From: Streptomyces sp. NBC_00425
Lineage (GTDB): Bacteria; Actinomycetota; Actinomycetes; Streptomycetales; Streptomycetaceae
Direction: 5' to 3'
Length of the DNA: 64,000 bases
Assembly (NCBI RefSeq): GCF_036030735.1
Contig: NZ_CP107928.1
Coordinates: 558,001 to 622,000, forward strand
Shown: in pieces, positions 4,996 to 37,215 of the stretch
How the letters are laid out: each line of letters starts with the position of its first letter
How positions within the stretch are numbered: position 1 is the stretch's first letter
Made by a program: the position numbers and the translations under genes
The notes under the pieces: generated by a model
What the model was told of the DNA's origin: nothing
Seen by the model: only the letters and a program-made list of their open reading frames with translations
Database searches by the model: none

Positions 4996-5053
4996 GAGTT
5001 CGGGGCGGCAGGTAGGGCGGTTGTAACTGGCCCTTGACGGCGTTCGCACGCCC

Positions 5054-5641
5054 TCAGGAATAGCGGGGAGCCGGCCGTCGTCGTCGAGGAGGTCTCCACG
5101 TGGTGGCGGCCTGCCAGGAGACTCTGCCCTCGCGCAGAATGCGCCGCAGGGTCTCCCGGCTGATCGCCGGCACCACCTGCCGTTCCACCAGGTGCTCGGC
5201 GAGCTTGGACAGGCTCCAGGTGGAGAACGCGGCGATGTCCCAGTCCGCGGGGGACGTCCGGGCGATCAGGCGGATGGGCTCACGCACCCGCTCACCGATC
5301 GCCTTCGGGCGTCCCCCGCTCCATTTTGGGTCCATCGCATCGAACCCCCGCTCGTTGAAGGCGTGGATGGCATCGCGGACGTAGTCCTCACTGACTTGCA
5401 TCAGCGCGGTGACGTCCGTGGCCACCTGGCCCTGGGCGGACATCAGCACCACGATCGCTCGGCGCAGCCGGACCGGGTCTTTCGCAGTTCGGCTGATCCG
5501 CTGCAGCCTGCGACCCTCGTCCATGCTGACCGGCCCGACGAACACACTCGGTCGACACCCCACGACCACCTCCAAGATCAGATCCTGGAGACAGTCTGCT
5601 GACCACCGGGCAGCACATCGATTACCCGGCCAAGGATGCAA
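5054..5641 (-). pseudogene. IS630-family transposase, N-terminal part only
   Basis: The 195-residue frame carries the helix-turn-helix half of an IS630 transposase: VSMDEGRRLQRISRTAKDPV, then KWSGGRPKAIGERVREPIRL and STWSLSKLAEHLVERQVVP. It breaks off just after VSWQAATTW, where family members enter the DDE catalytic domain, so the catalytic part is missing. It should be inactive. A separate C-terminal IS630 fragment occurs at about 32.4-32.7 kb and an N-terminal scrap near 39.97 kb, so this family has been active and decayed here more than once. Confidence 0.85.
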
Positions 5642-5650
5642 GTCGAGCCA

Positions 5651-6007
5651 CTAGCTCTTCGCCGGCTCTCCGTGCCGGACCTGCCGCTTGACCTCAAGCT
5701 CCACGCCGCCGCGCATCTTGCCCTGCTCCTTCGCGTGTTCGGTCACCGCAGCCTGGACCTCGTCGGCGCGGTCTCGCCACGCCTGCCATGCGGCCTCGTA
5801 GGCAGCCGGGTCATCCTGATCGCGTAGAGCCAGCACGGTTGCGTGTGCCTGGTCGGCGGTCAGCTGCATCTGCACGAGTTCTTCGAAGGTGTGTGCCACG
5901 TGCAGTGATCCTACGCGCGGATACGACAGCGCCTCCGCCTCGACGCGAGGCGGTGGCAGCCGGATGTGTGACCGGGCGGGGTCGGGATGAGTCTGATGCT
6001 CGGCCAT
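5651..6007 (-). CDS. Hypothetical protein (118 aa)
   Basis: The ATG at 6007 is preceded by GAGGAG at normal spacing. The first 30 residues are Pro/Arg-rich and probably disordered. The rest is helical (HTFEELVQMQLTADQAHATV, then AAYEAAWQAWRDRADEVQAA). No domain is recognised. It is transcribed away from the RiPP precursor gene, with 454 bp between the two starts. Confidence 0.55.
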   Translation of the reverse strand: MAEHQTHPDPARSHIRLPPPRVEAEALSYPRVGSLHVAHTFEELVQMQLTADQAHATVLALRDQDDPAAYEAAWQAWRDRADEVQAAVTEHAKEQGKMRGGVELEVKRQVRHGEPAKS

Positions 6008-6461
6008 GTGCGTCTCCTCGGTTCAGGCAGCATGCCGTTCGGCCCGAGGAACACCCACCGTCAGCTCCGTAAGCAGCGATCAGATCGCACATCTCAATCA
6101 GCGGCCGGGCGTCCCGAAGAGCGAGGCGGCCACTCCACCGGAGCCACCGGGGGCAAGCGACTTTAGAGCCACACCCCACTCTTCCGGACCGCCAAACAAC
6201 TTTACGGAGAGGCTTTGGGCTGGAGCTGGCCACTGTCGCTTCCAGCCTGCGGTACGAAGTGCCCATGGTAACCGGCGGGGGTGTGGAAGCGTCTCTCCTA
6301 CGCTCGACGCATTCACCGCGGGCACGCGACTCGCACGCGAATTCACCCGAACAGCCTTGCATCACCCGCCCGCATCGGATGGATGGCATGCGACGTCATG
6401 TTCCTTATGGTAGGAATTAGCACGGTTCCCGTCGCGTCAGTTGAATGACAGGAGATACGAC
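6008..6461. other. Intergenic region upstream of the RiPP precursor
   Basis: This 454-bp divergent gap should hold the promoters of the 118-aa gene (-) and of the Nif11-like precursor (+). I see no confident ORF, no strong sigma-70-type promoter pair and no clear operator. It holds a local AT-richer patch near 6400-6420 (TTCCTTATGGTAGGAATTAG) just upstream of the precursor ribosome binding site. Confidence 0.3.
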
Positions 6462-6803
6462 ATGACACGCCCCAACAAGGAAAAGATGACCTTCGAAAAG
6501 TTCTGCAGGGATTACATTCCCGAACACCCGGAACTGGGCCTCGGCACCGACGAACTCAGCCCGTCTGAGTTCGCGAAGGTGGCACTCGAAGAAGGACGTA
6601 AACTCGGGTTCTCCTTCACGGAGTCCGAGATCCAGGCCGTTCTCGGCGAGCACCGCCGGGTACGGCAGGAGATCGCGAATCTCGGCGCATCGGTCAAGGC
6701 GAGCGCGAACGGGACGGCGATGTGCTGGCACGGCGGACTCACGACCGAAGAGCCGATCGATGCCGACTGGCTCGTCATCAAGGCCGAGCAACCCGAGCGC
6801 TGA
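6462..6803 (+). CDS. Putative RiPP precursor peptide with Nif11-like leader (113 aa)
   Basis: ATG at 6462 has GGAG 8 nt upstream. Residues about 9-66 resemble the Nif11-type leader fold: FEKFCRDYIPEHPEL, then SPSEFAKVALEEGRKLGFSF followed by TESEIQAVL, the usual Ala-x-x-x-Gly-Phe-x-Phe-Thr motif. The rest is a helix and a C-terminal segment (about 75-113) with Ser77, Ser81, Thr85, Cys88, Trp89, His90, Gly91-Gly92, Thr94 and Thr95, candidate sites for modification. No conserved GG protease site before a short core is obvious, so the cleavage point is unknown. The gene converges on the modification operon with a 28-nt gap. It is the only leader-like small gene beside that operon, so I propose it as the substrate. 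The alternative is a small partner protein. Confidence 0.65.
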   Translation: MTRPNKEKMTFEKFCRDYIPEHPELGLGTDELSPSEFAKVALEEGRKLGFSFTESEIQAVLGEHRRVRQEIANLGASVKASANGTAMCWHGGLTTEEPIDADWLVIKAEQPER

Positions 6804-6831
6804 CACCACGGACGCCCAGGGCCGCTGACAG

Positions 6832-7737
6832 TCATCGGCACAGCGAACGCAGTTCGTCCGGCGTCCTCACCGGTGGCTGGATGTCGAGAGACTCAAGGTA
6901 CTGCTCCACCTCCCCAAAGAACCTGACGCCCAGCCTCTGGGTGAGCGCCCGTGGCCGGAGCCTCTCCTGCGGCCGGTGGCCCCGGGTGGACAGCGTGATG
7001 GTGACGGCGGAGTCGTCGATCTCGACGCGATGCCACCAGCGTCTGCCCCAGGTGACCATCTGCCCGGGCCCGAGATGGGCGCGACGGGCGCCGGTACCGT
7101 CCGAGAGCCATGCTTCGGGGACGGGGGACGTGTACATCGGGCTGAACCGCCTGCAGAGGTCCCACACCGGAAGTCGCGGCACGCGCCGGCAGGACGGGGG
7201 AACGAAGTCGAACTGCTTGCTGCCACGCACGACGAGGTTCCAACGGCCGTGCACCATTTCGCCGTCATGGTGCAGGGGGGTCACGTATCCGCCGCAGCCG
7301 ATCCACAGCAGCGCGAATCCGTACGGGTCGAGAGTCAGTCGCCGGTGAATTTCCATGATGACGGAGCGCAAGGGCTCTCCAAAAGCCTGTACGGGGATGA
7401 CGGCGTACGGCTTCAGCGTCCGAAAGGACGGATCATGGATCACGTCGAACGCCTGCCCGGCCGACATCACCGCCTTGGTGCGTCGTTCCCACGCGAGGAG
7501 TTCGGTCATGTCGAATCGGTGAGCCCGCGGAAAGCTCTGCCGGACACGGAGCGCGCCGAGAATGATTTCCATCGCCTGCCCTCGATAGGACTTGCGTAGC
7601 GCCTCCTCACTGAACTCCGGCAGCAGATCGGCGATCGCCTGGTACTCGTCCCGGACGAGGGGGTGGGGCAAGGCAGGGGCGCGTGGATCGATCGCGGTGT
7701 CGCCCTGCCGCGGAGTTGTTCCGGACCGCGATTTCAT
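6832..7737 (-). CDS. JmjC/cupin-like Fe(II)/2-oxoglutarate oxygenase (301 aa)
   Basis: A cupin-8/JmjC-like fold is suggested by the segment LLWIGCGGYVTPLHHDGEMV at about residues 140-158, which holds the iron-binding His-x-Asp, and by GQMVTWGRRWWHRVEI at about 225-240 with the distal His. The line WNLVVRGSKQFDFVPP between them is the typical strand pair of JmjC-like hydroxylases. Such enzymes hydroxylate protein or peptide side chains using O2 and 2-oxoglutarate. It is the last gene of the minus-strand operon. Its ATG overlaps the preceding stop by 4 nt (7734-7737), implying translational coupling. Its likely substrate is the precursor peptide, which is inference. Confidence 0.8.
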   Translation of the reverse strand: MKSRSGTTPRQGDTAIDPRAPALPHPLVRDEYQAIADLLPEFSEEALRKSYRGQAMEIILGALRVRQSFPRAHRFDMTELLAWERRTKAVMSAGQAFDVIHDPSFRTLKPYAVIPVQAFGEPLRSVIMEIHRRLTLDPYGFALLWIGCGGYVTPLHHDGEMVHGRWNLVVRGSKQFDFVPPSCRRVPRLPVWDLCRRFSPMYTSPVPEAWLSDGTGARRAHLGPGQMVTWGRRWWHRVEIDDSAVTITLSTRGHRPQERLRPRALTQRLGVRFFGEVEQYLESLDIQPPVRTPDELRSLCR

Positions 7738-8336
7738 CCTGCCTGCACCTCATTATCGGCCTGAGCCCGGTAGAAGAAGAAGTTCTGGGTCATCCGCCCG
7801 TCGGCCAGGTCGGCTCCCGTGAACCGGCGAGCGCCCGAGTGGAAGTACTTGCCGTCAAAGATGAGCAGACGGTTGTACTTTATGGGGACGTTGTACACGA
7901 TCTCCCACGCACGCGGATCCAATGTGTCCGTTTCGATTGCGCGCCGAACTTCTGGGCGGATGTTGTCCTCGGGTGACACCCGTTCGATGCCCAATTCCTT
8001 GTGGCGGTAGAAGTACGTGCCTTCGGTCTCCGCCTTCGACAAGTGCACAATCGCGCTGAAGTCGGGGGTGTCCACATGGACCATTGAAGTACGCAGAACC
8101 ATGTCGTCGGCCGTGGTGATCCGGAACGACCCCTGAGGCCGCTGGTATTTGAGGTCGATTCCGCCCAACAGCTTCGAGAAGCGGGTCATGGTCGCGGAGA
8201 CGTCGGCAGGGCCTTCGGCCGTGACACCCGGGTGGTTGACGCCTTCGGGGCGAAGGTATACCAGTCGGAGCGCTTCTTCGCGCACTGCGTCGGGATCATC
8301 GTAGAAGTCGTCCACAACGAGGACGCAGTGCTTCAT
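7734..8336 (-). CDS. DUF6445-type putative 2OG-Fe(II) oxygenase (200 aa)
   Basis: The opening VVDDFYDDPDAVREEALRLV, a central HVDTPDFSAIVHLS with a GTYFYRHK segment, and a distal NRLLIFDGKYFHSGARRF followed by RMTQNFFFYR match DUF6445 and related double-stranded beta-helix proteins. His84 and Asp86 with a His near residue 162 would form the iron triad. Start and stop overlap both neighbours by 4 nt, so it is translated with them. Probable role: oxidative tailoring of the precursor or of a group attached to it. No reaction can be assigned from sequence. Confidence 0.7.
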   Translation of the reverse strand: MKHCVLVVDDFYDDPDAVREEALRLVYLRPEGVNHPGVTAEGPADVSATMTRFSKLLGGIDLKYQRPQGSFRITTADDMVLRTSMVHVDTPDFSAIVHLSKAETEGTYFYRHKELGIERVSPEDNIRPEVRRAIETDTLDPRAWEIVYNVPIKYNRLLIFDGKYFHSGARRFTGADLADGRMTQNFFFYRAQADNEVQAG

Positions 8337-9256
8337 GATCCGAGCCGGAGTGCTTGCGCGAGAAGCTCTGCCGACCTCATTCGGCTGAACCTGTCCGGGG
8401 CGATGTCCAGCAGAATCACCTCATCCACCTCGTATTCCGCACAGAATTGCTCGATTCTGGACTTGCACTGCTCCGGATTTCCCACCACGGTCGGCAGGTA
8501 GTTGGGATTGGGAAAGCAGTCGCGCATCGCTCTCGCCTCCGCCTCGGTCTCGGCGCACACACCGGCAACGGCGATGGCCGCAAAGGGCTCGGTGAGTTCG
8601 CCGGAGGGGCGGAACTCCTTCCTGTAGCGGATGAGATTGGTCGGCGGAGCGATGCCGCCGTGGAAGAGAGTGCAGCAGAACCGTGCGCCGACGCGCGCCG
8701 CGTGACGTGCCGCGCCGGCCGATCCGCAGATCCACACCTCCGGCATGGCAGCACTCTCCGGGATCACCGGCGCCCCGGCATGCGGATGGCCGAGTGCCAG
8801 GGAGTTCCGCAGGTGACCGACGAGGTCGTCGAGCTTCGCACCGTAGTCCTGGTCATCGAGCAGACCGTCGCCGGCCGCTCGCCCGTCCAGCAGCGCGCGA
8901 TGTGACGCCAGGCTGTCCGCACGGCCGCGGCCGACTCCCAGGTCGACACGGCCGAACAGCGTTTCCAGCAGGCGGAAATCCTCGGCCAGTTTGAGCGGGG
9001 CCCAGTAGTGCAGGAGCATCGCCCCGACGCCTACCCGGATCCGGTTCGTTGCCGCGGCGACGACGCCGGTCAGCACCTGAGGACTGCCGCAGGCATGTCC
9101 TTGTACGTGGTGCTCCCCGAGCCAGTAGCGCGAGTAGCCCAGCGCCTCGGCGCGTGCTGCGAGCGCCAACGTGTCCTGGAGTGCCTCGCCTGGGGACCGG
9201 CTGGTCCAGGCCCAGCTGAAGTCGAGAAGACCGATCCTGAGGGGACGCTCAACCAT
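8333..9256 (-). CDS. LLM-class flavin/F420-dependent oxidoreductase (307 aa)
   Basis: A luciferase-like monooxygenase TIM barrel. The start LRIGLLDFSWAWTSRSP, the line LGYSRYWLGEHHVQGHACGS (the usual Trp-x-x-Glu-His-His motif) and the later LFGRVDLGVGRGRADS are diagnostic. I start it at ATG 9256, which overlaps the TfuA stop by 8 nt. Family members use reduced FMN or F420 to oxidise or reduce small molecules, and some act on RiPP intermediates. Its place inside the coupled operon, directly after TfuA, points to tailoring of the peptide. Which cofactor it uses cannot be decided here. Confidence 0.85.
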   Translation of the reverse strand: MVERPLRIGLLDFSWAWTSRSPGEALQDTLALAARAEALGYSRYWLGEHHVQGHACGSPQVLTGVVAAATNRIRVGVGAMLLHYWAPLKLAEDFRLLETLFGRVDLGVGRGRADSLASHRALLDGRAAGDGLLDDQDYGAKLDDLVGHLRNSLALGHPHAGAPVIPESAAMPEVWICGSAGAARHAARVGARFCCTLFHGGIAPPTNLIRYRKEFRPSGELTEPFAAIAVAGVCAETEAEARAMRDCFPNPNYLPTVVGNPEQCKSRIEQFCAEYEVDEVILLDIAPDRFSRMRSAELLAQALRLGS

Positions 9257-10610
9257 CCGCGCGCACCGTAATCGTCTTCTTTTCGCCTTCCCGGACGTAC
9301 TCCAGGAGGAGCTCGCAGACGAACTGGCTGCCGTCGTGGAACCGGCGTGCACGGATGTGATCGTCGAACGACGTATCAAGCGTCCGAAACCGTTGTTCGT
9401 ACCAGCTCAGGAGATCGTCTGTGGTCGTTCCGACGTCCTCCGCGGCGGGAAAAGTGTTGCCGAACTCGGCCAGGGCGTCGCGCTTTTCGGCGACAGCCGT
9501 CGCCACCGTCCCGAATCGGCCCCGCCGTTGCAGCTCTGCGGGAAGAAAGGCGTCGAGTCCGGCCGAGTGGTGCCTGGCCACGCTCTCGACGAGTGCGAGG
9601 ACCTCCATCAGGGCGGAGAATTCCTCCTCTGCCATCATGTTCCTGCTGAGCCAGTCCTGTGTCGTTTCCGGCGTCACCAGTCCCTGTGCCATTCGGAAGC
9701 GCTCGGTGACGCGTGCGACCTGCTCCGGCTCCGTCCGGATTCCCAGCCGGTGGGCTTCCTTGACGACCAGGTACATCGTCAGTGCGCCCTCGAAGATCGC
9801 GTCGGCGTCGTCCTCCACAACGCCGACGTGACTGCGAATCGCCCCGATGGGAACGCCGGCACTGGCTCCCGGGCCGCTTCGAACGCCGCTGACAAGCTGA
9901 TCCCAAAAGACCGTCGACTCGAACTCAAAGGGCGGCTTGAAGGGTTCTTCGAACCTGGAGCTGGCCTGCTCGATCTCCATGAGCAGTTGGAGAGCGTCAA
10001 GCCGCTTCCGGTTGGGTGCCTCGTTCTCGACGAACTTGACGAGCGCGTCCGACTCCGACCGAGGAAGATCCGTGTTCCGCGCGATCTCCGGCACGAGCGA
10101 CCAGGTGCGCTCGGCGTAATGGCGTCGTTTCATCTCCCGTAGCACCGTGTCGTGCGTCGCCAGTCCGATGTATCCGCGCTTCATCGCCTGGCGCAACCCG
10201 TCGCGGATGTTGGCCATGGCTTCGGACAGCACTGCGAAGCCGGATTCCTCCGCTGTGTGAATGACGGCGACCTCGTCGTCGTCTTCGTACACGCCGTCGC
10301 GGTACGCCTCGAAGATCTGCCCGACGCCCACCATGCCGAAGGGATGCAGTTCCGCGGCCCGCAGCGCCCCCATGCTTGAGGCCCCCAGGACGTGCACGCC
10401 CCTGGACAGCGCGTACAGGATCTCCTTGTGCCAGACCGCGGGAACCTGTTCGAAGTATCCGTCGATGATCGCTACGACCTTGGCGCCATTCCGCACCGCC
10501 CGGTAGACGTCACCCGCCTTCGCCGGTGGCAAGTATGTCGCGGCGGGAAGGACGGCGCGGGCATCCGCCCGGGTCAGGCTGGGTCCGAGAAACACGTGGA
10601 CTGCCTTCAT
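9249..10610 (-). CDS. tfuA: TfuA-like protein, YcaO partner for thioamide formation (453 aa)
   Basis: The first about 200 residues have clear TfuA signatures: VFLGPSLTRADARAVLP, PPAKAGDVYRAV, IIDGYFEQVPAVWHKEILYA and VLGASSMGALRAAELHPFGM, then IFEAYRDGVYEDDDEVAV. TfuA proteins occur with YcaO enzymes that install backbone thioamides in RiPPs such as thioviridamide-type peptides; TfuA is thought to help deliver or activate sulfur. The C-terminal half is helical, and one stretch (TTQDWLSRNMMAEEEFSALM) has the same look as the C-terminal region of the MBL protein at 14932-16746. The ATG overlaps the YcaO stop by 4 nt. Confidence 0.93.
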   Translation of the reverse strand: MKAVHVFLGPSLTRADARAVLPAATYLPPAKAGDVYRAVRNGAKVVAIIDGYFEQVPAVWHKEILYALSRGVHVLGASSMGALRAAELHPFGMVGVGQIFEAYRDGVYEDDDEVAVIHTAEESGFAVLSEAMANIRDGLRQAMKRGYIGLATHDTVLREMKRRHYAERTWSLVPEIARNTDLPRSESDALVKFVENEAPNRKRLDALQLLMEIEQASSRFEEPFKPPFEFESTVFWDQLVSGVRSGPGASAGVPIGAIRSHVGVVEDDADAIFEGALTMYLVVKEAHRLGIRTEPEQVARVTERFRMAQGLVTPETTQDWLSRNMMAEEEFSALMEVLALVESVARHHSAGLDAFLPAELQRRGRFGTVATAVAEKRDALAEFGNTFPAAEDVGTTTDDLLSWYEQRFRTLDTSFDDHIRARRFHDGSQFVCELLLEYVREGEKKTITVRADG

Positions 10611-11851
10611 GACTTCCCTTTCCTGGCGGCGCGGGCACGTCGGCCTTCCACATAGCCGGCCACGAACGGCGCGGATTCGAACTCGGGCACGATCACCTTC
10701 ACTACGGGAATACCGATGTCCGGTTTGGTCAGATCGACCACCACCACCTGGTCGACATCCGCCGCACGGAGGGCGGTCAGCATGACTTCGAGGTCTCCCT
10801 CGAAGGAGTCCGTCTCCGGTTGCCGGGCGTGTGGCAGGAAAGGCAGCACACCGGGGGCCGTGAAGATGCTGTCCCTGAATGCCTGGGCGCTCCAAATGCC
10901 CTGGGATCCCGCGTACACCGCCGGCGGATTGTCGTCACGGCTCGCGGCGATGACGGTCAACCGTGCCTGGGCCGCCTCGGTGACGGCACGACTGAGCGCC
11001 ACGACGGGCGAGAGGTGTGTGCCACATCCCCATTCCGCGCCCAGTCGATTCCATTGGCCGCGCTCCTCCCGCTCCAGCAATCCGGCGCGGAACGTCGCAA
11101 CGCCCACCTCGGAAGCCATTTCCAGGACCGCCAGTTCCATGCCGGCGGCGCGGCACAGGTCGATCAGTTCCCTGAGTGAAGGTTCTTCGATCGTGTCGAC
11201 GTCGATCTTCGCACCGGGTGAGTCGACCGTTCCCTGCGCGCAGCTCAACGCGTGCGCGTCACGTTCGATGACTTCGCACAGCGCGTGTTCGATGGCCTCC
11301 AGAAGGTGGTTCCCCGACGCCAGACCGTTGGACGTGCCCAGGAAGGTCATCGTCGCCTGGGTGACTCCGACCGTGTTCATACTGACGAACTCGAACGGGA
11401 CCCAGACCTGTGTCTCGGACAACAGGTCCCAGCCCGGCAGCCAGGACTGCTGCTGTTCGAGCCGTACCCTCCCGCCCTTGACCAACGGCAGCCGGTGCAG
11501 GTCGACGAGGTTGTGGCGACGGCGCAGCGCGTTGTAGGAACCGTGGAGGCACGGAATTTCGATGTTCTCGGCATGCCAGAGTTCAATGGCCTCCATCATC
11601 GCGGAGGCCTTTGCCGACTCGATGTCGGCGCCCTTGCCCTGTGAGACGGAAAGAGAACGGGAGTTGGGGCGGATGGCCTGGACGACGGGGATGCCGATGA
11701 CGTCCAGGCCGGTGACGTCGGCCAGGCGGGTGATACCGACCTGTGGCATGTGCCGTCCGAAGTCCTGCATTGTCTCGGCTGGAGTTCGGGCTCGTCTCGT
11801 GCCAGGCAGGAACCTCTTCGGCTGGTGGTAGTCCCGGTTGAAAATGCGCAT
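10607..11851 (-). CDS. ycaO: YcaO cyclodehydratase-type ATP-dependent enzyme (414 aa)
   Basis: ATG at 11851 is preceded by AAGGAAAAC. The frame carries the YcaO hallmarks: VGITRLADVTGLDVIGIPVV, IRPNSRSLSVSQGKG followed by SAMMEAIELWHAE, and TSNGLASGNHLLEAIEHALC with EVIERDA, which include the ATP- and Mg-binding Glu residues. YcaO enzymes activate amide backbones with ATP, giving azolines, amidines or, together with TfuA, thioamides. The chain is a stand-alone YcaO without an obvious leader-binding (E1-like) domain. It is coupled to TfuA by a 4-nt overlap, so thioamidation of the precursor is the best prediction. Confidence 0.95.
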   Translation of the reverse strand: MRIFNRDYHQPKRFLPGTRRARTPAETMQDFGRHMPQVGITRLADVTGLDVIGIPVVQAIRPNSRSLSVSQGKGADIESAKASAMMEAIELWHAENIEIPCLHGSYNALRRRHNLVDLHRLPLVKGGRVRLEQQQSWLPGWDLLSETQVWVPFEFVSMNTVGVTQATMTFLGTSNGLASGNHLLEAIEHALCEVIERDAHALSCAQGTVDSPGAKIDVDTIEEPSLRELIDLCRAAGMELAVLEMASEVGVATFRAGLLEREERGQWNRLGAEWGCGTHLSPVVALSRAVTEAAQARLTVIAASRDDNPPAVYAGSQGIWSAQAFRDSIFTAPGVLPFLPHARQPETDSFEGDLEVMLTALRAADVDQVVVVDLTKPDIGIPVVKVIVPEFESAPFVAGYVEGRRARAARKGKS

Positions 11852-11865
11852 GTTTTCCTTGAGTC

Positions 11866-12732
11866 CTACGAGCCGGGGCCAACGGCATGCGGTGACCACG
11901 CGTGCGTCATGGCGTTGAACATGTGGGTGCGATCGGACGGCGTGAAGCCGTAGCGGTTCCAGTGGTACAGAGCCACGTGTGGCAGAACGAATCGATACGC
12001 GAACAGGAGCCTGCCCTGCTCGTGCAACTCGCTGAACCGTGTTGCCATTATGGTATTCGCCGACGCATAGGCATGCAGAATCGCTGACTCTTCCGGCCCA
12101 AGATGGCCGATAATTCGCTCGATCGTAGGTACGGCGACGGCGCTGCTTTCACCGAGGACACGGGCCCCGTGCAGGCAGGTGACGCGACACCAGACATCCC
12201 AGATTTCCTCGGGAAACTCGAGAAATCGAAGGAACAGGTCGTTGAGCACTGCGAGGGAAAGCAGCCGCGCATCGACGGTCGCTTTTTTCTGCGCCATCCG
12301 CCCCCACCGCCACCACGCCCGACTGTCCGTGGAGAAATAGGAGTGCACGGCCTCGACCGCCTCCGGGCCTCCCAGCTTGAAGGTCTCGGCCTCATAGACA
12401 CTCGCGAACCAGCGTTCGGCGATCCGGCGTCCGACCAGGACATCACAGCAGTTCTTAATCCTTTTTTCGGCAATTCCGCCGGGTTCCGACAGTAGGAAGC
12501 GGAGCCTGAGACCTGGCGGCTTTCGAACGAAGAAGAAGCAGGAAATCCGCTTGCTCTCGGTCAGCTCGTCGACCATTTCGAATACGGCGTCAAAGATGCC
12601 GGGCATCGGGTCGCTGCCCGGAGTGCGGGTGACGGGCAGCACCAGGTTGGCCTGATACCAGACGGGACCACGCGTGTCGGCGGCGCAGGAACGGCACGAT
12701 GAACTCAACGGTGAACGCCTCGCCCTCGTCAT
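11866..12732 (-). CDS. LanB-type elimination domain (SpaB_C / thiopeptide-type)
   Basis: About 260 residues match the C-terminal elimination domain of lantibiotic dehydratases: PVWYQANLVLPVTRTPGSDP, then SCFFFVRKPPGLRLRFLL, and DRTHMFNAMTHAWSPHA near the end. This domain removes glutamate from glutamylated Ser/Thr to give dehydroalanine or dehydrobutyrine. The start is uncertain: ATG 12732 is the first in-frame option that keeps the domain whole, but it overlaps the glutamylation gene by 143 nt in another frame and has only a weak ribosome binding site. It could therefore be the distal part of one LanB split by a +1 shift near 12690. Confidence 0.8.
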   Translation of the reverse strand: MTRARRSPLSSSCRSCAADTRGPVWYQANLVLPVTRTPGSDPMPGIFDAVFEMVDELTESKRISCFFFVRKPPGLRLRFLLSEPGGIAEKRIKNCCDVLVGRRIAERWFASVYEAETFKLGGPEAVEAVHSYFSTDSRAWWRWGRMAQKKATVDARLLSLAVLNDLFLRFLEFPEEIWDVWCRVTCLHGARVLGESSAVAVPTIERIIGHLGPEESAILHAYASANTIMATRFSELHEQGRLLFAYRFVLPHVALYHWNRYGFTPSDRTHMFNAMTHAWSPHAVGPGS

Positions 12733-14935
12733 TGAAGAGTTGCACCTGATCACCGGGCTCCTCGACGCAGAGGAAGCCGGCCCGGTCGCTCAGCCCGTGC
12801 AACATCGCCTCCACCGCCAGCGGGCTGTCGCGGGGGATTAGCAGGGGTGAGCCGGCGTCTCGGCTCACGAGGAGGAGCTCGGGCCAGTCGTGTCGGCGTG
12901 CCAGGTCCTGCCAGAGAAGGAAACCCCGCGAGCGCCGGGCCAGGGCGAGCTCCGTGAGAGTGGCACCGTGAATGACGGTTCTCCTCGGCTTCACGGAGTT
13001 GCCGCTCGGGAGCAGCAGGACCGGAGAGGGGGCGGACTGGGCGAGCTCGGCTTCCGTGGGGAGCTCCAGAGCGAACCAGTCCGGCGTGTCCCGGAAGGAC
13101 GACAGCAGCAGCGTCTCGAGATGCGGCTCGCTGTAGCCGATGTTGGCGGGAGAGAAGCAGCAGATGGCCATGGGGCGGGCCTGCTCCTGCGCGGCGGCGA
13201 CCACGATCGGGGCGTCGTCCGCGGTCAGCACCACGCCGAGCTGATCGCTGCGGTAGGACGACGAGGTTCCCCATCGATCCCACTGCAGGAAGGGAAAGGG
13301 CGGTCGAGCGAGCATGTTCGGCATGGCCTCGCACGGTCCGACGTACTCGACGACTTCGAGATCCGCTTCTCGCGCGACGCGGGTCAGGCTCCTTCGGTAC
13401 CACCCGTGCAGGGCATTGTTCTCGAACTTCCGACGCGCCCTGCTGCCGATACCGAACCAGAGGTGTCCGAACCGGCCGTAGGCGGCGGCCACCTCGGACG
13501 TGCTTGCCGCGATCCGGTAGCCCGTGGCTGTCGGGCGGACGATCAGCCCGCCGATGGGCGGGGGCAGCACTTCCTCGGGGAACCCGTCGGACAGGTGGTC
13601 GCTGGGCGACGTGCTGCCTGCCAGCCACTCGGACCAGCGCAGGAGCCGTCGCCCGACTACGTGGTCGGACCCCGAAGCGCGCCAGGCCGACTCCTGTGTC
13701 GGCACCCGTCCAAATTCGGCCGTGCTCTCGCGCGCCGTCCTGTCATGGCCGCTGACCACGAGCCTCCGATGCACGGCACGCGCGGCTGCCGTGACTCCGT
13801 GACATCGCTCGAAGAGATCGAATTCCGCGACGGCGGCGGTCAGACGTGTCTTGTCCTCGGGTCCGAGGACAAGGCTGAACGGGGCGCTCGTGTCGCAGCG
13901 TAGGACGGAGCGGGGCAAGGGCGGAGGCTCGACGTCCAGTTCGGCTGCTAGTTCACGGGGGATGGTACGGGCCTCGTCCAGCACCGCGTGGAGCCGTCCG
14001 AGGGGGATGGTGCTCATCTCCCGTTCGAGGAGGCGGCAGGCCCGTCGAAGCCGCAGCACTGCGGACCTCCAGGGCTGTGCGTGCTGTTCGTGCAGGAGTC
14101 GTGGGACGGACGTCACCGCCTCCCAGGCGGAGACGAAGGTGTGGGGAAAGGCAAGGCCGCCCACCAGCAGACCCGCGCAGGCCAGGGACACGAGCATGTC
14201 ATTCAGTTCGGGGGCGTGGAAGCCGTGCTCGCGCAGCTCGGCAGCGATCACGGACAGCGGTGCCGGTTGCATCTGCGCCAAGGTGGTCAGGAGTGCGTCG
14301 ATCCCAGGACTGCGCGGGCGCTCCATGGACGCGATCGACGAGAAGTCGCGGACGGTGTACCGCCAGCGGGTCCGCTCCTCGTCCAGGGTCAGCGTCGGGT
14401 TCAGCTTGTACACGCCCCGGTCCAGATAGAGTTCGGTGTGCGCCAGTGACTGCACGATGAACTGGTACGGCCGCAGGTCCGGGGCGATCGCGTAGCGCGC
14501 GGGCTCTGCCCGGATTCGTGTGGCGTCCCCCCAGTCCGCGACCGTGACGCCTGCCCACAGATCGCACGGCTGGGTTCGCCACACCGCGCGGGCGAGGTAG
14601 CGGTACAGCGTCGCATCCAGGCGACGCGCTCGCTTGTCCCGGGGCGCCGAGCGCAGGTGCCGGGTCGTGAGGTGCCGGCTGAGGGCGTCGTTGGTCAGGG
14701 ACAACGCTCTGGAGAATCGGGGGTCGTCGATGGTCGCTTCGAAGAGCGCCCGCCGCTGCGTTTCGACGCTCTCCAGGTATGCCTGCTCGAATGCTTGCGT
14801 GGACCGGGTCCCCACGTCGGCGGCCAGCGCGGCGAGGTCCTTGTCGCGCAATCCGAGGACCTTGCAGAGCGGAAAGAGCGCGGCACGCACGACGATCTGC
14901 GGAGCGATCTCCTCGATGCAGTCATCCGGTGTCAT
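12590..14935 (-). CDS. LanB-type glutamylation domain (lantibiotic dehydratase N-terminal)
   Basis: A 781-residue protein with the layout of the LanB N-terminal (glutamyl-tRNA-dependent) domain: IEEIAPQIVVRAALFPLCKV, FSRALSLTNDALSRHLTTRH, a YRYLARAVWRTQPCDLWAGV motif, PYQFIVQSLAHTELYLDRGV, and the closing GEAFTVEFIVPFLR. Such enzymes transfer glutamate from glutamyl-tRNA to Ser/Thr of a leader-bound peptide. After VPFLR the remaining about 30 residues look like out-of-frame run-on, which suits a +1 shift relative to the elimination domain. ATG 14935 overlaps the upstream MBL stop by 4 nt. With the elimination domain it predicts dehydroamino acids in the product. If the elimination domain were not used, a peptide aminoacyl-tRNA ligase role would be an alternative. 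Confidence 0.88.
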   Translation of the reverse strand: MTPDDCIEEIAPQIVVRAALFPLCKVLGLRDKDLAALAADVGTRSTQAFEQAYLESVETQRRALFEATIDDPRFSRALSLTNDALSRHLTTRHLRSAPRDKRARRLDATLYRYLARAVWRTQPCDLWAGVTVADWGDATRIRAEPARYAIAPDLRPYQFIVQSLAHTELYLDRGVYKLNPTLTLDEERTRWRYTVRDFSSIASMERPRSPGIDALLTTLAQMQPAPLSVIAAELREHGFHAPELNDMLVSLACAGLLVGGLAFPHTFVSAWEAVTSVPRLLHEQHAQPWRSAVLRLRRACRLLEREMSTIPLGRLHAVLDEARTIPRELAAELDVEPPPLPRSVLRCDTSAPFSLVLGPEDKTRLTAAVAEFDLFERCHGVTAAARAVHRRLVVSGHDRTARESTAEFGRVPTQESAWRASGSDHVVGRRLLRWSEWLAGSTSPSDHLSDGFPEEVLPPPIGGLIVRPTATGYRIAASTSEVAAAYGRFGHLWFGIGSRARRKFENNALHGWYRRSLTRVAREADLEVVEYVGPCEAMPNMLARPPFPFLQWDRWGTSSSYRSDQLGVVLTADDAPIVVAAAQEQARPMAICCFSPANIGYSEPHLETLLLSSFRDTPDWFALELPTEAELAQSAPSPVLLLPSGNSVKPRRTVIHGATLTELALARRSRGFLLWQDLARRHDWPELLLVSRDAGSPLLIPRDSPLAVEAMLHGLSDRAGFLCVEEPGDQVQLFNDEGEAFTVEFIVPFLRRRHAWSRLVSGQPGAARHPHSGQRPDARHL

Positions 14936-16746
14936 GCCCGGCCCACGGCCCGCATGGTGGCGAAGGCCCGCTGACCGGCCAGGCGTTTCTCGATGAGATC
15001 GGACATGGCTTCTTCCAGGCGGAGGACTCCCTGCCACTCGAAGAGGATCTCGCAGTACTCGGCCATGCCGAGTCCCGCCCGGTCGAGCCAGGCGACCATG
15101 TCCGCGTGGTCGGTCAGGCCGTGCCGGCGCCGTAGATCGTCGCTCATGTCGGCAACCTGCTGCGTGCTCACGGTGAGGCCGCGGCGTTGCATCTCCTCAA
15201 GGGCGAGGAGCCGCAGGAGGACCCGCTTGCGCGACAGTCCCACAGGCTCCTGCGTGGAACCGGGTGCCGAAAGCAGAGCGTCGACGTCGTTGTAGGGCCA
15301 GACGTGGCCGTGGTTGGCGACAACGTCGGCCTCGCCCCGGCTGTCGAACCGAATCGACTCGCCCGGCCTCATGAGCAGGGTCCTGACTGGTGAGGCGAGC
15401 GCGCGCACGCCGTTCTCCGAGCGTTCCGCGGCGGCACGGACGACCGCTTCCGGCGGTGGATCGAAGTGTGTCTCCCCGGGGGTGGCGGAGCCGTCTGCGA
15501 CAGCCCCCAGTCCGAGTTGCCAGTACCAGGGTGCTCCTCCGTTTGCGTAGGGGACCACGTGGCGGGCGTGCCATCGTTCCGCCGTGTCGAGGAGAGCCTG
15601 CGAGTCACTCATGATCGTCTGCCGGGTCTGCCACAGGGATCGTGGGGTGTATAGCAGGTACTGCGGGACGGAGCTCGTCAGATACTGGATCGGGTACAGC
15701 CGCCACGGCCGATAGCCGCCGAAGAGCACGTCGATGGGCCCGTACCGTTCGTAGGCCTCTTTCGCCAGCGAGCGGACGTCGCCGAGGTGGTCCCGGCCTG
15801 CGTCCGCCAGGAAGGCGTAGCGGCGCCCCTCTCCCTCGACGAGATACGTGTTTCCTGTGTTGCGGATGTCGGGCGGGAGCGGTGCGTCGTCGGTGGGCTG
15901 CTCGCCGTACATCGGCAGTGCGACGACACGGAAGTCGCCGATGACCGTCTGCTGGTTCCAGCCGAGTGCCCGCACGTCTGTGAAGCCGAGCTCCTTCAGC
16001 CGGTAGACCATGTCGATGGCCAAGGAGGACTCTCGCGCCACCTCGGGCACGACGACCGGCGTATCCCGACCGAGCCGGAGCAGACTGTCGACGTGGAAGT
16101 GGTCCCGGTGGGAGTGGGTGACGAGGACAGCGTCGGGTGAGAGGTCGCCGTGGGTCAGCGGCTGGTAACCGGCCGGGAACCGCTCGTCGCGCGGCATAAG
16201 GAACGGGTCGATCAGGATCTTGGTTCGCGGGCTCGACAGCAGCACGGTCGCATGGCCGACCAACGTGGCCGCCCCGCGCGTGCGGGTCGGCGGGCGCGGC
16301 GCCGCGAAGCACTGGAGCTCGTACAGCGCTTCCCACAGGTCGCGTGCCGGGCCGGGGGCGGGCCTGGAGGCGTTGTGCTGCCACTCGCCGATCCATGCCG
16401 CCAGGTCACCGGCGAGTTCCGGGCCGACGGGCAGCCGCAGGGGAGCGAGGCGATCGCGGTACAGAACGATCGCCGCCGGACGGGTCTGTGAGGGCACCGG
16501 AAAGCTCAGTTCTTCGCGAATTCTGCACGCGTCGAAGATCTCGCCGGCACCGTCGAGCCCTAGGCGGTCCAGGATCTCTGGAGCCCGCTCGACCGCATCC
16601 AGCGCGTCACGCCGCAGGGTTTCGATCGCGGGGCGAAAGCGTTCCTTGAGCTTTCTTTCGAGCTGCCCGGATACCGTCGTACCGAACGGGCTGTCATCCG
16701 CGTAGGCCAGGTGCAACTCGACCGCACTGCTTAGTGAGAGTTCCAT
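14932..16746 (-). CDS. MBL-fold metallohydrolase with extra N- and C-terminal domains (604 aa)
   Basis: Residues about 165-420 are a metallo-beta-lactamase fold: ATLVGHATVLLSSPRTKILI with a following DPF, the metal motif THSHRDHFH at about 207-215, a YAFLADAG strand with the bridging Asp, and a late HVVPYANGG. About 160 residues precede it (a helical domain starting MELSLSSAVELHLAYADD) and a helical domain of about 100 residues ends it. The fold resembles UlaG-like hydrolases. A role in hydrolysing or rearranging a peptide-bound intermediate is inferred from operon position. A paralogue lies at 17965-19404. A 31-nt gap separates it from the upstream JmjC gene. Confidence 0.82.
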   Translation of the reverse strand: MELSLSSAVELHLAYADDSPFGTTVSGQLERKLKERFRPAIETLRRDALDAVERAPEILDRLGLDGAGEIFDACRIREELSFPVPSQTRPAAIVLYRDRLAPLRLPVGPELAGDLAAWIGEWQHNASRPAPGPARDLWEALYELQCFAAPRPPTRTRGAATLVGHATVLLSSPRTKILIDPFLMPRDERFPAGYQPLTHGDLSPDAVLVTHSHRDHFHVDSLLRLGRDTPVVVPEVARESSLAIDMVYRLKELGFTDVRALGWNQQTVIGDFRVVALPMYGEQPTDDAPLPPDIRNTGNTYLVEGEGRRYAFLADAGRDHLGDVRSLAKEAYERYGPIDVLFGGYRPWRLYPIQYLTSSVPQYLLYTPRSLWQTRQTIMSDSQALLDTAERWHARHVVPYANGGAPWYWQLGLGAVADGSATPGETHFDPPPEAVVRAAAERSENGVRALASPVRTLLMRPGESIRFDSRGEADVVANHGHVWPYNDVDALLSAPGSTQEPVGLSRKRVLLRLLALEEMQRRGLTVSTQQVADMSDDLRRRHGLTDHADMVAWLDRAGLGMAEYCEILFEWQGVLRLEEAMSDLIEKRLAGQRAFATMRAVGRA

Positions 16747-16777
16747 TCGCCACCTTTTGGTGTGAACTTTCGGTTCA

Positions 16778-17968
16778 TCAGATCACCGCTGCGACTCCCG
16801 AGGCGACGAGCTCGGAGACGAGAGAGCTTGTCGCGTGTCCGCTGAACACGTCGACGCCTATCGGCCGTCCTTCGACGAGTGCGCGAAGACACGGCTCGGC
16901 TTGGGCCGGCGCCCACCACTCGTCACCGGCCACGACGAGGACGACGCCGCCGTCGCGCCGGCGGATCTCTGCTCGCGTGCTCAACAGAACCACCCTCGAG
17001 TCCGCTTCCCATGTTCCCGGACCGATGTGGTCGAGAGCCTGCAGCGTCGGACGCGGATCGAGGTAGTGCGTCTTCGACTGTGTGGCGTCGAAGAGTCGGA
17101 GTGCCGACGGGGCGAGCCATTCGTCCAGGACCGAGCGCAGAGCCGCCGCGTGCCGCGCGCGTGCCTGGTCGTCGTCCAGAACAGGGATGTCCTGACGCAT
17201 GAGGTCGCATGCGGTCGCCTGTTGTACCAGCCACGTCATGAAGTCCGCGTTGGTGGGCCGGAGTACGCCGATGGTCAGGTGCAGTGAGGGTTGATTCAGC
17301 GGGGTGACCTTGTGCCACCAGCCGCGGGGCAGATAGAGCACGCTGCCTGGAGTAAGCGTCCACTCGTTCGCGTACTCGGTCGGCGGCTCGCCGAAGTCGT
17401 CGGGCAACGGCCATTTGCGTGTGGGTGACTGCACCTGCCAGTGCTTTTGCCCCAGGAGCTGGATCACGAACACGTCGTGGTCGTCCCAGTGCTCCGGGAA
17501 GCCGCCCACATCGCCCCAGCTCGCGTACATGTTGACGAAGGCGAAGACCCGTAGCGCACGTTCGATCTCCTGCTTCAGGGCGTGAATCGGCGAGTGGGCC
17601 TGGTCGATGGCGTCCCAGACCATGGTGGCGCCCTTGCGGATCTCTGCGAGGAGGCGGGCGGTGTCGAGCATCCTGAGTGGGCCGCGCAGCGTGTGAACGG
17701 TGCGATGGTAGTCCGATTCCGGTACGGCTCTCCCGAACTTCACCAGCCGAAATCTGGGGGCAGGTGGCCGCCGGTAACGGATCAACTCGTTGAGGCTGCG
17801 CCACGACAGCAGGTGGGCGAAGCGGTCCGGACTGCCCGTCCCGAACCACTCACGTCCGCCCCTAATGTCCTGCTCGAACTCCTTGACGCCGAGCGGCTCG
17901 ATGAGGGACGGGAAAATAAGACGTTCGGCGTTCACCGCTGGCTTTTCGCCTCTGTTCGCTCGGATCAT
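16778..17968 (-). CDS. JmjC/cupin-4 oxygenase, ROXA-like (396 aa)
   Basis: The protein resembles bacterial ribosomal-oxygenase-type JmjC proteins (cupin-4): FAFVNMYASWGDVGGFPEHW followed by DDHDVFVIQLLGQKHWQV (iron ligands His and Asp near residue 158), then TPGSVLYLPRGWWHKVTP with the distal His near 217, and a C-terminal region like the winged-helix tail of this family. Family members hydroxylate peptide or protein side chains. Here the likely target is the RiPP precursor, distinct from that of the smaller JmjC protein at 6832-7737. The ATG overlaps the upstream MBL stop by 4 nt. Confidence 0.85.
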   Translation of the reverse strand: MIRANRGEKPAVNAERLIFPSLIEPLGVKEFEQDIRGGREWFGTGSPDRFAHLLSWRSLNELIRYRRPPAPRFRLVKFGRAVPESDYHRTVHTLRGPLRMLDTARLLAEIRKGATMVWDAIDQAHSPIHALKQEIERALRVFAFVNMYASWGDVGGFPEHWDDHDVFVIQLLGQKHWQVQSPTRKWPLPDDFGEPPTEYANEWTLTPGSVLYLPRGWWHKVTPLNQPSLHLTIGVLRPTNADFMTWLVQQATACDLMRQDIPVLDDDQARARHAAALRSVLDEWLAPSALRLFDATQSKTHYLDPRPTLQALDHIGPGTWEADSRVVLLSTRAEIRRRDGGVVLVVAGDEWWAPAQAEPCLRALVEGRPIGVDVFSGHATSSLVSELVASGVAAVI

Positions 17969-19404
17969 GACAGAGAATACGATTTCTCTGCCGAGCGGGA
18001 TGCTCGTTCATAGACCATCCGGTCCGCTCGTCCTCGGTCTACGGAGATCCAGTCACCAGGATTCCAGCCGATCGCTCGGGTCGGAATACCTTCGCCCTGG
18101 AAGCGATCGGTCAGGTAGGACACCAGCTCCCACTCCGGAGGCTCACCCATGCTCATGCCAACATCTCCGATCCTTTTTCCGACCCCTTCGAGCCCGTTTC
18201 CATAAGGGAGGTAATAGCGCGGCCGCCCCGCTCGGCAGACATCCACAATGCCGTCGGGACCAGGAGTGACGCTCGGAAGTCTTCCCATTCGGAATTGCGT
18301 GAACAGCTCCCGCAGCCTGTCGAACGGCAGAGCCAGGTAGTAGTGCGGAAGTCCGAAAAAGAAAGGACAGTGGAAGCGTGGCAGTGAGCTGAGGAAGAAG
18401 TCCACAGGCCCGTGGTCGTCTCGTGAGGAACGGACGACGTCCGCCATGTCACCGAGCGGATCGACACCGCTGTCGATCAGCGAAACCGCTGTGAAGTCAG
18501 GGGTCGAGAAGCGATAGCAGCTCCCCCAGTTCCGCAGATCGGGGTGGGGCGCCTGTCCCTCACGGACAGGTTGCTCTCCGAAGAAGGGCAGGACATCGAC
18601 ATGGATGTCGCCGATGACGATGGAGGATCCCCACTCCGGTGCGTGTGCGTTGAGGCCGAAAAGTCTGAGGCTCCGCAACATGTCGTTGGGAGCGAGCAGG
18701 CTGGTGCGTGGCACCGGCGGGACGACCACGGTCGTTCGGGCCGGGTCGGCATGGGCCAGGACGGACGGAACACTGTAGTGATCAGCGTGCCCGTGGGTGA
18801 TGAAGACCGCATCGATCCCGCCCTCGACGGCGATGGGGTCCCGGGGCGCCTGGGGCATCCAGAAGGACACCGGATCCAGTAGCACGCTCGTTGTCCTTGA
18901 CCGAATGACGACGCATCCGTGTTCGCGGCGATAGATACCGGGACCCTCGATGCGTGGGAAACCGGGCATCGGCACGGAATCACCGTGAGTGAGAAGAGCG
19001 CAGAACGTGCGCGGCAGCCACGAGAGATCCGGCACGGACTCCGGGTCACCGGTCAGTGAGCGCAGTACCGACGCGACGTCGACGGCCATGGACGTGTCGA
19101 ACCGCGTGGTCACCTGCTCCGCACTGCCGTTCTCCCTGAACAAGCGGAGGCGAAATGCGTAATCCGCGGACGGGTGAAGGAGCGCCTCGGTGGCGACGAT
19201 GCCTCCATCGGTGACCGCTCGCGCGTCAAGAAGAGATTCATCGACCGGGAAAGCGGGATGGCGGAACAGCTCCTCGACTGCCCTCCTGCACTGTTGCGTA
19301 TCGAATTCGAGAGCCATCCACCGCTGCAGCAGCTGGCCCACGAAAGGAAGAGCCTCCGGCTCTCGCTCGATGACGTGCAGCGTCGCTCCGTTAGGAACGA
19401 TCAT
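17965..19404 (-). CDS. Second MBL-fold metallohydrolase (479 aa)
   Basis: ATG at 19404 with AAGGGAA upstream makes this the first gene of the coupled operon. A 150-residue N-terminal domain leads into an MBL fold: CVVIRSRTTSVLLDPVSFWM, the metal motif THGHADHYS near residue 200, VSLIDSGVDPLGDMADVV with the bridging Asp, and YYLPYGNGLEG. It shares the order of elements with the MBL protein at 14932-16746 (including the PFFGEQPV and PMYGEQPT segments) and is clearly a paralogue, but lacks the long helical C-terminus. Two MBL paralogues in one RiPP operon is unusual; each may act on a different intermediate. Confidence 0.8.
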   Translation of the reverse strand: MIVPNGATLHVIEREPEALPFVGQLLQRWMALEFDTQQCRRAVEELFRHPAFPVDESLLDARAVTDGGIVATEALLHPSADYAFRLRLFRENGSAEQVTTRFDTSMAVDVASVLRSLTGDPESVPDLSWLPRTFCALLTHGDSVPMPGFPRIEGPGIYRREHGCVVIRSRTTSVLLDPVSFWMPQAPRDPIAVEGGIDAVFITHGHADHYSVPSVLAHADPARTTVVVPPVPRTSLLAPNDMLRSLRLFGLNAHAPEWGSSIVIGDIHVDVLPFFGEQPVREGQAPHPDLRNWGSCYRFSTPDFTAVSLIDSGVDPLGDMADVVRSSRDDHGPVDFFLSSLPRFHCPFFFGLPHYYLALPFDRLRELFTQFRMGRLPSVTPGPDGIVDVCRAGRPRYYLPYGNGLEGVGKRIGDVGMSMGEPPEWELVSYLTDRFQGEGIPTRAIGWNPGDWISVDRGRADRMVYERASRSAEKSYSLS

Positions 19405-19564
19405 CTTGCTTCCCTTGGCTGGGCACTCTTCACGAAATCCTCTGTGCGAAGGTATCGGGGCCAAGGGGGATGCTAGCGCGACCCAAACCGTACAGCGGGG
19501 AGGACTGGGATCGGTCTGACCGTGTCGGCCCGGTCGGAGCTTCCCCGAGATGAGTGATGGGTCG

Positions 19565-29904: not shown

Positions 29905-29942
29905 GACCGGCAGCTTAATCAGCCAAATGAGATGAAGTCTAA

Positions 29943-37113: not shown

Positions 37114-37215
37114 TTAGAAGCCATCTCATTTGGCCGAGATAAGGTGTCGGCCCCAGTTGACGCACGGGGTGCCGATACAGGTCGTCTCGGCAGATGAGGC
37201 GGATGGAGCAGGGAC

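Follow-up and report, generated by a model that had tools for sequence, protein, structure and literature searches.

The 64,000-nucleotide stretch analyzed here (the window) is part of the 9.8-Mb single-contig genome of Streptomyces sp. NBC_00425, and eleven of its genes, between positions 6462 and 19404, appear to encode a biosynthetic pathway of their own. We read this block, with moderate confidence, as a self-contained pathway to a thioamide-containing ribosomally synthesized and post-translationally modified peptide (RiPP), in which up to six oxygen-using enzymes would take part. The RiPP nature of the block and its thioamide chemistry are well supported by the protein families that it encodes. 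One small plus-strand gene stands beside a ten-gene minus-strand operon (19404 to 6832), whose members encode, in the order of transcription, the metallo-β-lactamase (MBL)-fold protein MBL2, a JmjC_2 protein, a second MBL-fold protein (MBL1), the N- and C-terminal parts of a LanB dehydratase (LanB_N and LanB_C), YcaO, TfuA, a luciferase-like monooxygenase (LLM), a DUF6445 protein, and a Cupin_8 protein. A preliminary description of this DNA had placed an unrecognized RiPP cluster at 6462–19404, in which TfuA-YcaO and a LanB pair are joined by several iron oxygenases; the annotation confirms these coordinates, and our analysis supports an uncharacterized, coherent operon of this type. Its author knew of no characterized pathway with this set of genes, and none was found in the searchable open-licence literature.

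The eleven-gene block is one unit. A TfuA scan of 84,980 species genomes gave eight loci, one of which, in Streptomyces paradoxus (NZ_JACHGV010000023.1), the nearest named relative of the block, carries the whole eleven-gene set, including the small gene beside the operon, in the same order and with protein identities of 84–96% (MBL2 measured from its true start). The search of other genomes that the preliminary description had called for recovered the full set, and its expectation of a precursor gene beside the operon held in S. paradoxus, the single relative in which the operon was detected. As the scan requires exact short stretches, more distant copies of the operon may escape it. At the nucleotide level, the two genomes share a single collinear blastn match of 13.4 kb (window 6312–19718, 89.4% identity), and outside this interval the sole S. 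paradoxus match is a 224-bp transposon fragment. Beyond the block, the comparison covered about 7 kb of S. paradoxus on the small-gene side and only 0.9 kb on the MBL2 side, where the border is therefore less sure.

The layout also agrees with the earlier picture of a minus-strand operon with mostly 4–8 nt overlaps and a convergent small gene. Six of the nine junctions are of this kind, five with a 4-nt overlap and LLM/TfuA with 8 nt; YcaO and LanB_C are separated by 14 nt, MBL1 and JmjC_2 by 31 nt, and 28 nt lie between the converging stop ends of the small gene and the operon. Compared with S. paradoxus, identity is 86% in the 28-nt gap and 94% in the 31-nt gap, and the stretches 5′ of the small gene and 5′ of the operon are less conserved (71–78%). 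The latter, a non-coding stretch at 19405–19564 (minus strand) that we presume to hold the promoter, shows 78% identity against 87–92% in the genes.

The thioamide assignment comes from the YcaO and TfuA proteins. The ycaO gene (10607–11851, minus strand, 414 aa, PF02624 E 4.6e-77) and the tfuA gene (9249–10610, minus strand, 453 aa, PF07812 E 5e-45) are adjacent with a 4-nt overlap, and both products are well above the Pfam cut-offs. Both also score more than 210 bits with the McrA-glycine thioamidation models of NCBI, yet stay under the model cut-offs (YcaO, 213 bits against TIGR03266, cut-off 365). In the std pathway, peptide thioamidation is the work of a YcaO-TfuA pair (PMC13174530), and in the present block YcaO, with ATP, would activate one or more backbone amides for which TfuA would provide the sulfur. 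The small gene beside ycaO-tfuA is kept in S. paradoxus, the sole relative with the operon, under strong purifying selection. The block resembles the YcaO-TfuA thioamidated RiPPs, i.e., thioviridamide-like compounds, thiovarsolins, thioamidated thiopeptides, and std peptides, in its adjacent YcaO and TfuA, its small conserved peptide gene, and its oxidative tailoring genes (PMC13174530, PMC8120280, PMC6511847). Unlike them, it shows no Pfam match to DUF692, carbamoyltransferase, ThiF or its RiPP recognition element (RRE), or heme oxygenase among the operon proteins scanned.

Outside the window, 25 TfuA places were found in the phylum, of which 24 were fetched as regions of up to 20 kb; one (L076) was dropped, its contig being 4.9 kb long, and 23 loci, two of them from one genome, were counted by tblastn at E 1e-3. 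YcaO lies nearby in 23/23 of these, and a relative of MBL1 or MBL2 in 0/23; a relative of the window JmjC is present in four (L035, L037, L071, L086). The TfuA of the window is a long form with a C-terminal extension, and full-length relatives occur in Archangium, Pseudovibrio, Paracoccus, and Tepidamorphaceae. The three of these loci examined, from Archangium, Pseudovibrio, and Tepidamorphaceae (L039, L040, L042), have YcaO and no other relatives of the operon genes. As a separate observation, L037 (8335–14952), from the same genus, is a TfuA-YcaO locus in which a prolyl oligopeptidase and three JmjC-like matches also occur. The window itself holds a degenerate YcaO N-terminal stretch at 48210–48317 (plus strand; 56% identity over 36 aa to the operon YcaO), which sits between a small open reading frame (47795–48070) and one at 48593–49930 with the predicted look of a membrane transporter, and is possibly the relic of a second YcaO cluster.

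The small gene (6462–6803, plus strand, 113 aa, AGGAG 7 nt upstream of its ATG) is the only precursor candidate recognized in the block. Its product is identical to the S. paradoxus protein at 108 of 113 residues, the differences falling at positions 2, 6, 51, 69, and 93, and of its 27 substitutions 21 are synonymous, where a share of 0.225 would be expected (p 1.7e-9). By the Nei-Gojobori method, its ratio of nonsynonymous to synonymous rates (dN/dS) between the window and S. paradoxus is 0.067, the lowest of the eleven, the ten enzymes ranging from 0.136 to 0.278. With the lowest dN/dS and mostly synonymous changes, we accept it as a real gene and the best candidate for the precursor, and we infer that it encodes the substrate of the pathway. 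Its C-terminal third carries S77, S81, T85, C88, W89, H90, T94, and T95.

The protein belongs to an orphan family: it matches no Pfam (E up to 5) or NCBIfam model, and it was found in one of 392 genomes sampled from the genus, that of NBC_00425 itself. A profile of the two known sequences gave a best E of 0.94 against 8,524 stop-to-stop frames of at least 30 aa from the collected loci, and a search of plasmids for the precursor returned no match at E up to 1. The preliminary description had called the precursor Nif11-like. We reject this assignment: even with E values up to 10 allowed, PF07862 does not find the small gene in the NBC_00425 genome, and an hhalign comparison with one cyanobacterial Nif11 precursor gave a probability of 0.6%.

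The two LanB-derived proteins are encoded together, and PF04738 and PF14028 are both above cut-off. LanB_N (12590–14935, minus strand, 781 aa) is a divergent glutamylation-type protein that passes the Pfam cut-off across its first third (Lant_dehydr_N, E 4.1e-12, about 290 residues matched), and LanB_C (11866–12753, minus strand) is a stand-alone elimination-type protein of the thiopep_ocin kind (Lant_dehydr_C, E 1.6e-15; TIGR03891 above cut-off). By itself, LanB_N has no match in the PDB with an E limit of 1, and it has none in plasmids; a four-row profile that includes full-length LanB proteins matches 9g04, 5ehk, NisB, and 6ec7. Their genes overlap by 164 or 17 nt, depending on whether LanB_C starts at GTG 12753, with GAGGAG upstream, or at ATG 12606, and the frame overlap is common to both genomes, with no indels. 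A programmed frameshift joining the two parts was considered; codon-position counts were not decisive, and the GTG start with its GAGGAG can explain the overlap.

The preliminary description had assumed dehydration by a LanB pair. The split LanB parts are indeed present, as in the split dehydratases of goadsporin and the thiopeptides, which have separate N- and C-terminal proteins; unlike in those systems, hallmark residues are altered, and this weakens the case for dehydration. LanB_N has RTQPCDLW in place of RPTPFGLF, which we take to be the canonical glutamylation motif, and in LanB_C the equivalents of NisB R784, R786, and E823 are kept and that of R826 is Lys, these four being, as we understand them, residues of the elimination domain. 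Because the hallmark residues differ, dehydration is uncertain; Ser/Thr dehydration is plausible, and the pair may act on Ser/Thr by glutamylation and elimination or by an altered form of that chemistry. With one YcaO and one LanB_C only, the block is predicted to form no azoles and no pyridine ring. The other features of thiopeptide pathways (a ThiF/RRE partner, an azole cyclodehydratase, and a second LanB_C protein for cycloaddition; PMC8120280) were likewise not recognized by Pfam in the ten proteins submitted to it, MBL2 excluded.

The altered motifs raise the question of whether the LanB-like pair dehydrates anything. LanB_N could instead be a tRNA-dependent ligase of the peptide aminoacyl-tRNA ligase (PEARL) type or another tRNA-using enzyme, the small protein then serving as a reusable carrier on which a small-molecule product is built. 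The carrier-like conservation of the small protein (108/113, dN/dS 0.067), the lack of a canonical RPTPFGLF, and the several redox enzymes, which PEARL pathways presumably also have, would suit such a scheme. On the other hand, the LanB_C gene overlaps LanB_N as in split dehydratases and keeps three of the four compared elimination residues, and PEARL systems, as we understand them, pair a small LanB that has no C-terminal elimination domain with a carrier peptide; the block has a conserved small protein but also a LanB_C gene. We regard the carrier scheme as improbable and retain the LanB-derived pair as modifiers of the peptide's Ser/Thr residues.

Two members of the operon are MBL-fold proteins. 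MBL1 (14932–16746, minus strand, 604 aa) matches Lactamase_B_2 (E 3.3e-14). MBL2 (17965–19404, minus strand, 479 aa), whose gene heads the operon with a start backed by the S. paradoxus orthologue, was left out of the Pfam scan and is called MBL-fold from its match to PDB entry 8a90 and weak NCBIfam hits. Against the PDB, MBL1 is closest to FrsH (8a90, E 3.3e-14) and CmlA (4jo0, 6.5e-11), with NAPE-PLD as its best hydrolase at 3.8e-4, and 8a90 is the sole match of MBL2 at E up to 0.1 (2.6e-9). Together with relatives from other loci they form a subfamily, which we call the GEQ type after one of its motifs and of which eight members were aligned. Its profile scores FrsH and CmlA at 73–79 bits against 39 for NAPE-PLD, again the best hydrolase. 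The motifs HxHxDH, GEQ, DxxN, and DxG are invariant in 8/8 members (three near-identical pairs among them), and HxHxDH and the Glu of GEQ align to their FrsH and CmlA counterparts. In CmlA this Glu, part of a GEH motif, is E377 according to the title of the E377D entry 5kil. NAPE-PLD presumably has His at the position where the GEQ family has Glu. The preliminary description had reported a pair of MBL proteins; two MBL-fold proteins are there, and by sequence they are most like the CmlA/FrsH diiron β-hydroxylases.

Several points weigh against an oxygenase role. The final His of the motif YAMGxEPWLxH, a column that we take to be the CmlA ligand H468, is kept in 6/7 other CmlA-like proteins of the order; in MBL1 it is Gln, and in MBL2 the alignment has no residue at this column. 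VIA-align does not separate oxygenases from hydrolases, with UlaG and RNase J at equal or higher Z. The window proteins share with CmlA and FrsH the MBL fold, the HxHxDH, the Glu and Asp ligands, and the best sequence and Foldseek matches, and differ from them in having GEQ for GEH, a DxxN motif unseen in the GEH rows, and no final His. As this ligand is lost, we describe MBL1 and MBL2 as probably working like the CmlA type and not as strict members of it. The Gln of MBL1 does not exclude iron, since a diiron MBL protein of Thermotoga maritima is recorded to have a Gln where motif 5 otherwise provides a His ligand (PMC7785958).

These points bear on the alternative that the RiPP pathway is the same and the MBL pair are metal-dependent hydrolases (a leader peptidase, a lactonase, or a thioester hydrolase) or metal-poor scaffolds. 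Such roles are in keeping with the placement of MBL1 in the β-lactamase superfamily by Pfam, with the absence of the seventh CmlA-type ligand, with the VIA-align scores, and with the fact that no other peptidase was recognized in the block. They fit less well with a profile that favors FrsH/CmlA over NAPE-PLD by at least 33 bits, with the Foldseek search of a model of the MBL2 core (pLDDT 62), in which rows 1–5 are FrsH and CmlA, with the Glu where NAPE-PLD presumably has His, and with the recurrence of the family next to 2-oxoglutarate (2OG) oxygenases; the T. maritima protein with its motif-5 Gln also speaks against them. We consider a hydrolase or scaffold role rather unlikely, and infer from the sequence comparisons that the MBL proteins are oxygenases.

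In a tree of MBL cores the eight GEQ rows group together (support 94/94, not starred), and MBL2 is nearer to the Burkholderia and Pseudanabaena proteins than is MBL1 (100/99); the tree is unrooted, long branches meet in it, and three outgroup rows are mostly empty, so that it does not decide whether the GEQ and CmlA types are sisters. Because MBL2 groups with the Burkholderia and Pseudanabaena proteins, MBL1 and MBL2 are likely old paralogues and probably not redundant.

The GEQ subfamily looks rare. With three candidates scored per genome, members above threshold were found in one of 396 genomes of the phylum (that of NBC_00425) and in two of 392 genomes of the genus (the same genome and G741), and an earlier sample of 197 contributed genome G188. 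MBL2 matches three of 72,556 plasmids; among viral contigs, the MBL alignment gave 280 pattern matches, 0 of them confirmed. In G188 and in Streptomyces sp. ADI95-16, the GEQ MBL gene accompanies LanB, LanB_C, LanC, and a radical SAM protein, which the ADI95-16 record names GrrM; in Pseudanabaena galeata it accompanies LanM, Nif11 precursors, and two 2OG-Fe(II) oxygenases; and in Burkholderia arboris it accompanies a Cupin_8/JmjC gene that is followed by a nonribosomal peptide synthetase (NRPS) module. By tblastn alone, the G741 locus has LanB_C and MBL relatives. Three of the settings are thus of RiPP type and one is NRPS. A 2OG-type oxygenase gene is adjacent in the clearest cases, namely, by Pfam, the window, Pseudanabaena, and Burkholderia; the MBL-adjacent gene of ADI95-16 has an HxD-like motif without a significant Pfam hit, and that of G188 has none. 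An adenylation (A)-domain motif was present in the fetched region of 5/7 GEH-type loci of the order against 1/6 GEQ loci (Burkholderia; Pseudanabaena was not among the six), and neither an A-domain nor a peptidyl carrier protein motif was found in the window. Unlike the genes for CmlA and FrsH, GEQ MBL genes occur mostly in RiPP-type clusters among the loci tested and not by NRPS modules.

We tentatively propose, as a possibility somewhat short of even odds, that the GEQ-type MBL proteins constitute a new diiron oxygenase family that modifies peptides: relatives of CmlA and FrsH that would have shifted from carrier-bound amino acids to ribosomal peptides, with changed metal ligands and a 2OG oxygenase as partner. 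In the block, two old paralogues of this family, three 2OG-type enzymes, and a flavoenzyme would then act on one thioamidated peptide. The role of FrsH is established: it is a diiron β-hydroxylase whose substrate is carrier-bound leucine (PMC7794379). In open-licence literature, supplements not included, no title or abstract among the matches listed reported a CmlA-like MBL protein in a RiPP cluster, although absence from print is not thereby proven; the words ‘JmjC’ and ‘lactamase’ are absent from the main text of two TfuA surveys (PMC8120280, PMC6511847).

The three putative 2OG-type oxygenases each have, as read from the sequence, an HxD with a downstream His (JmjC_2 residue 160, Cupin_8 156, DUF6445 87). 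The JmjC_2 protein (16778–17968, minus strand, 396 aa, PF08007 E 5.3e-26; HxD at 160–162) is a putative Fe(II)/2OG hydroxylase whose PDB relatives are MINA (8.2e-12), NO66, and the ribosomal L16 arginine hydroxylase. The Cupin_8 protein (6832–7737, minus strand, 301 aa, Pfam E 2.8e-7) has its HxD at 156–158, followed by a downstream WWH, and the 12 chains that it matches in the PDB with E no higher than 0.1 all belong to factor-inhibiting HIF (FIH), the best at 0.0016; it has no match in plasmids. The DUF6445 protein (7734–8336, minus strand, 200 aa, Pfam E 2.3e-22) has HVD at residues 87–89 and a later FHSGxR; a PDB search with E up to 1 gave it no match. The sixth candidate, the LLM-class flavin monooxygenase (8333–9256, minus strand, 307 aa, ATG 9256), is a Bac_luciferase protein of the MsnO8 subfamily (TIGR03558, 213.8 bits against a cut-off of 166.95). 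Where the preliminary description had two JmjC oxygenases, one is a JmjC_2 protein as stated, the other is an FIH-like Cupin_8 protein, and DUF6445 is a third HxD-bearing candidate. It had counted three putative iron oxygenases; because the MBL pair is CmlA/FrsH-like by sequence, the count becomes five, plus one flavin enzyme.

A JmjC peptide hydroxylase is established in a RiPP pathway, that of the ornithine hydroxylase BipG (PMC12707348), and in this respect the block is like the biphenomycin-type RiPPs with BipG and PbsQ (PMC12707348, PMC12257519). By description, those pathways also have a B12-radical SAM enzyme, DUF692, and TldD, none of which was recognized in the block. JmjC relatives occur in 157 of the 72,556 plasmid records, and three inspected records were without TfuA, so the JmjC family is not cluster-specific. 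Separately, on three Streptomyces plasmids (L055, L056, L057) a JmjC-type cupin gene occurs with genes for an aldo/keto reductase and a hypothetical protein, and an annotated 43–45 aa open reading frame lies just upstream; they possibly represent a separate RiPP family.

The DUF6445 protein as a tailoring enzyme of thioamide clusters is supported by an independent case from a plasmid of Piscinibacter, where tfuA and a DUF6445 gene overlap beside DUF692 and a carbamoyltransferase-YcaO fusion. Against such a role, of the other two plasmid DUF6445 matches, the one inspected lies amid sugar-degradation genes. The whole Piscinibacter cluster (L095, 6128–13651) comprises a small peptide gene, DUF692, carbamoyltransferase-YcaO, TfuA, DUF6445, and GNAT, with ABC transporter genes upstream; it resembles the std pathway (PMC13174530) and is a candidate std-like thioamide RiPP cluster with an added DUF6445.

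The ribosomal-oxygenase type of the JmjC_2 protein invites a different view of the block, in which a host protein is the substrate of YcaO-TfuA and the oxygenases, and the small gene has only an accessory part. There is a parallel in Escherichia coli, where YcaO thioamidates uL16 near the β-hydroxylated Arg81 (PMC13063428). Yet the block is sporadic, its precursor and its MBL type being confined to the NBC_00425 genome among the 392 genus and 396 phylum genomes, respectively, and ten such genes better suit one specialized product. We find modification of a host protein very improbable, and continue with the small protein as the likely substrate.

The C-terminal regions of TfuA and MBL1 resemble each other (E 7e-6 in a two-sequence comparison). 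Both fall under TIGR04500, a putative peptide-maturation family, at E values of 7.6e-6 (TfuA) and 0.0027 (MBL1, as a C-terminal extension), far below the cut-off in each case, and the TfuA region has a marginal SurA_N_3 match (0.028). Comparison of the two regions as profiles scored 30.7, where none of 60 shuffles exceeded 25.8, though with a probability of only 42%. These modest similarities suggest that the two regions may bind peptide and hold it during the modifications.

Taken together, the pathway may proceed as follows. The convergent small gene would encode the precursor; thioamidation would probably come early, as in the std pathway, where it is the first step (PMC13174530); the LanB proteins would then act on Ser/Thr; and JmjC_2, Cupin_8, DUF6445, LLM, MBL1, and MBL2 would hydroxylate or desaturate core residues. 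Leader removal and export would rely on host functions, and the absence of an exporter is not unusual among thioamidated RiPPs (PMC8120280). If the oxygenase reading of the GEQ-type MBL proteins holds, the family would add another group of iron enzymes to the RiPP toolkit, and genes automatically annotated as ‘MBL fold metallo-hydrolase’ would become a marker for oxidized RiPPs in Streptomyces and cyanobacteria. In that case we know of no more oxygenase-rich thioamide RiPP pathway. A system comparable to the MBL pair is PqqB, an MBL-fold hydroxylase of a RiPP pathway that acts after release of the peptide. Thioamitides (thioviridamide-like compounds) have a Cys decarboxylase and kinase-like or HopA1-like genes, none of which Pfam recognized in the ten proteins scanned. 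The block is compact (13 kb), and an orthologue is available in the culture-collection strain S. paradoxus DSM 43350.

A consensus scan of 6200–19800 found no sigma-70-like site, terminators were not in excess there either, and Rfam gave no match above the gathering score over 5000–22000. Immediately upstream of the operon and on the same strand lies an animal-type haem peroxidase gene (19565–21499, minus strand), of whose 3′ end a 154-bp remnant with 80% identity appears to be present at the MBL2-side edge of the block in S. paradoxus. The window also holds the gene for an nSTAND NTPase of 1,475 aa (22004–26431, minus strand) with many WD40 blades from 126-bp repeats. Further along the window, 29919–31067 and 35989–37137 form a perfect 1,149-bp inverted repeat with an IS4/5-type transposase, and a fragment at 32500–32717 matches part of a transposase-like gene at the S. 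paradoxus locus.

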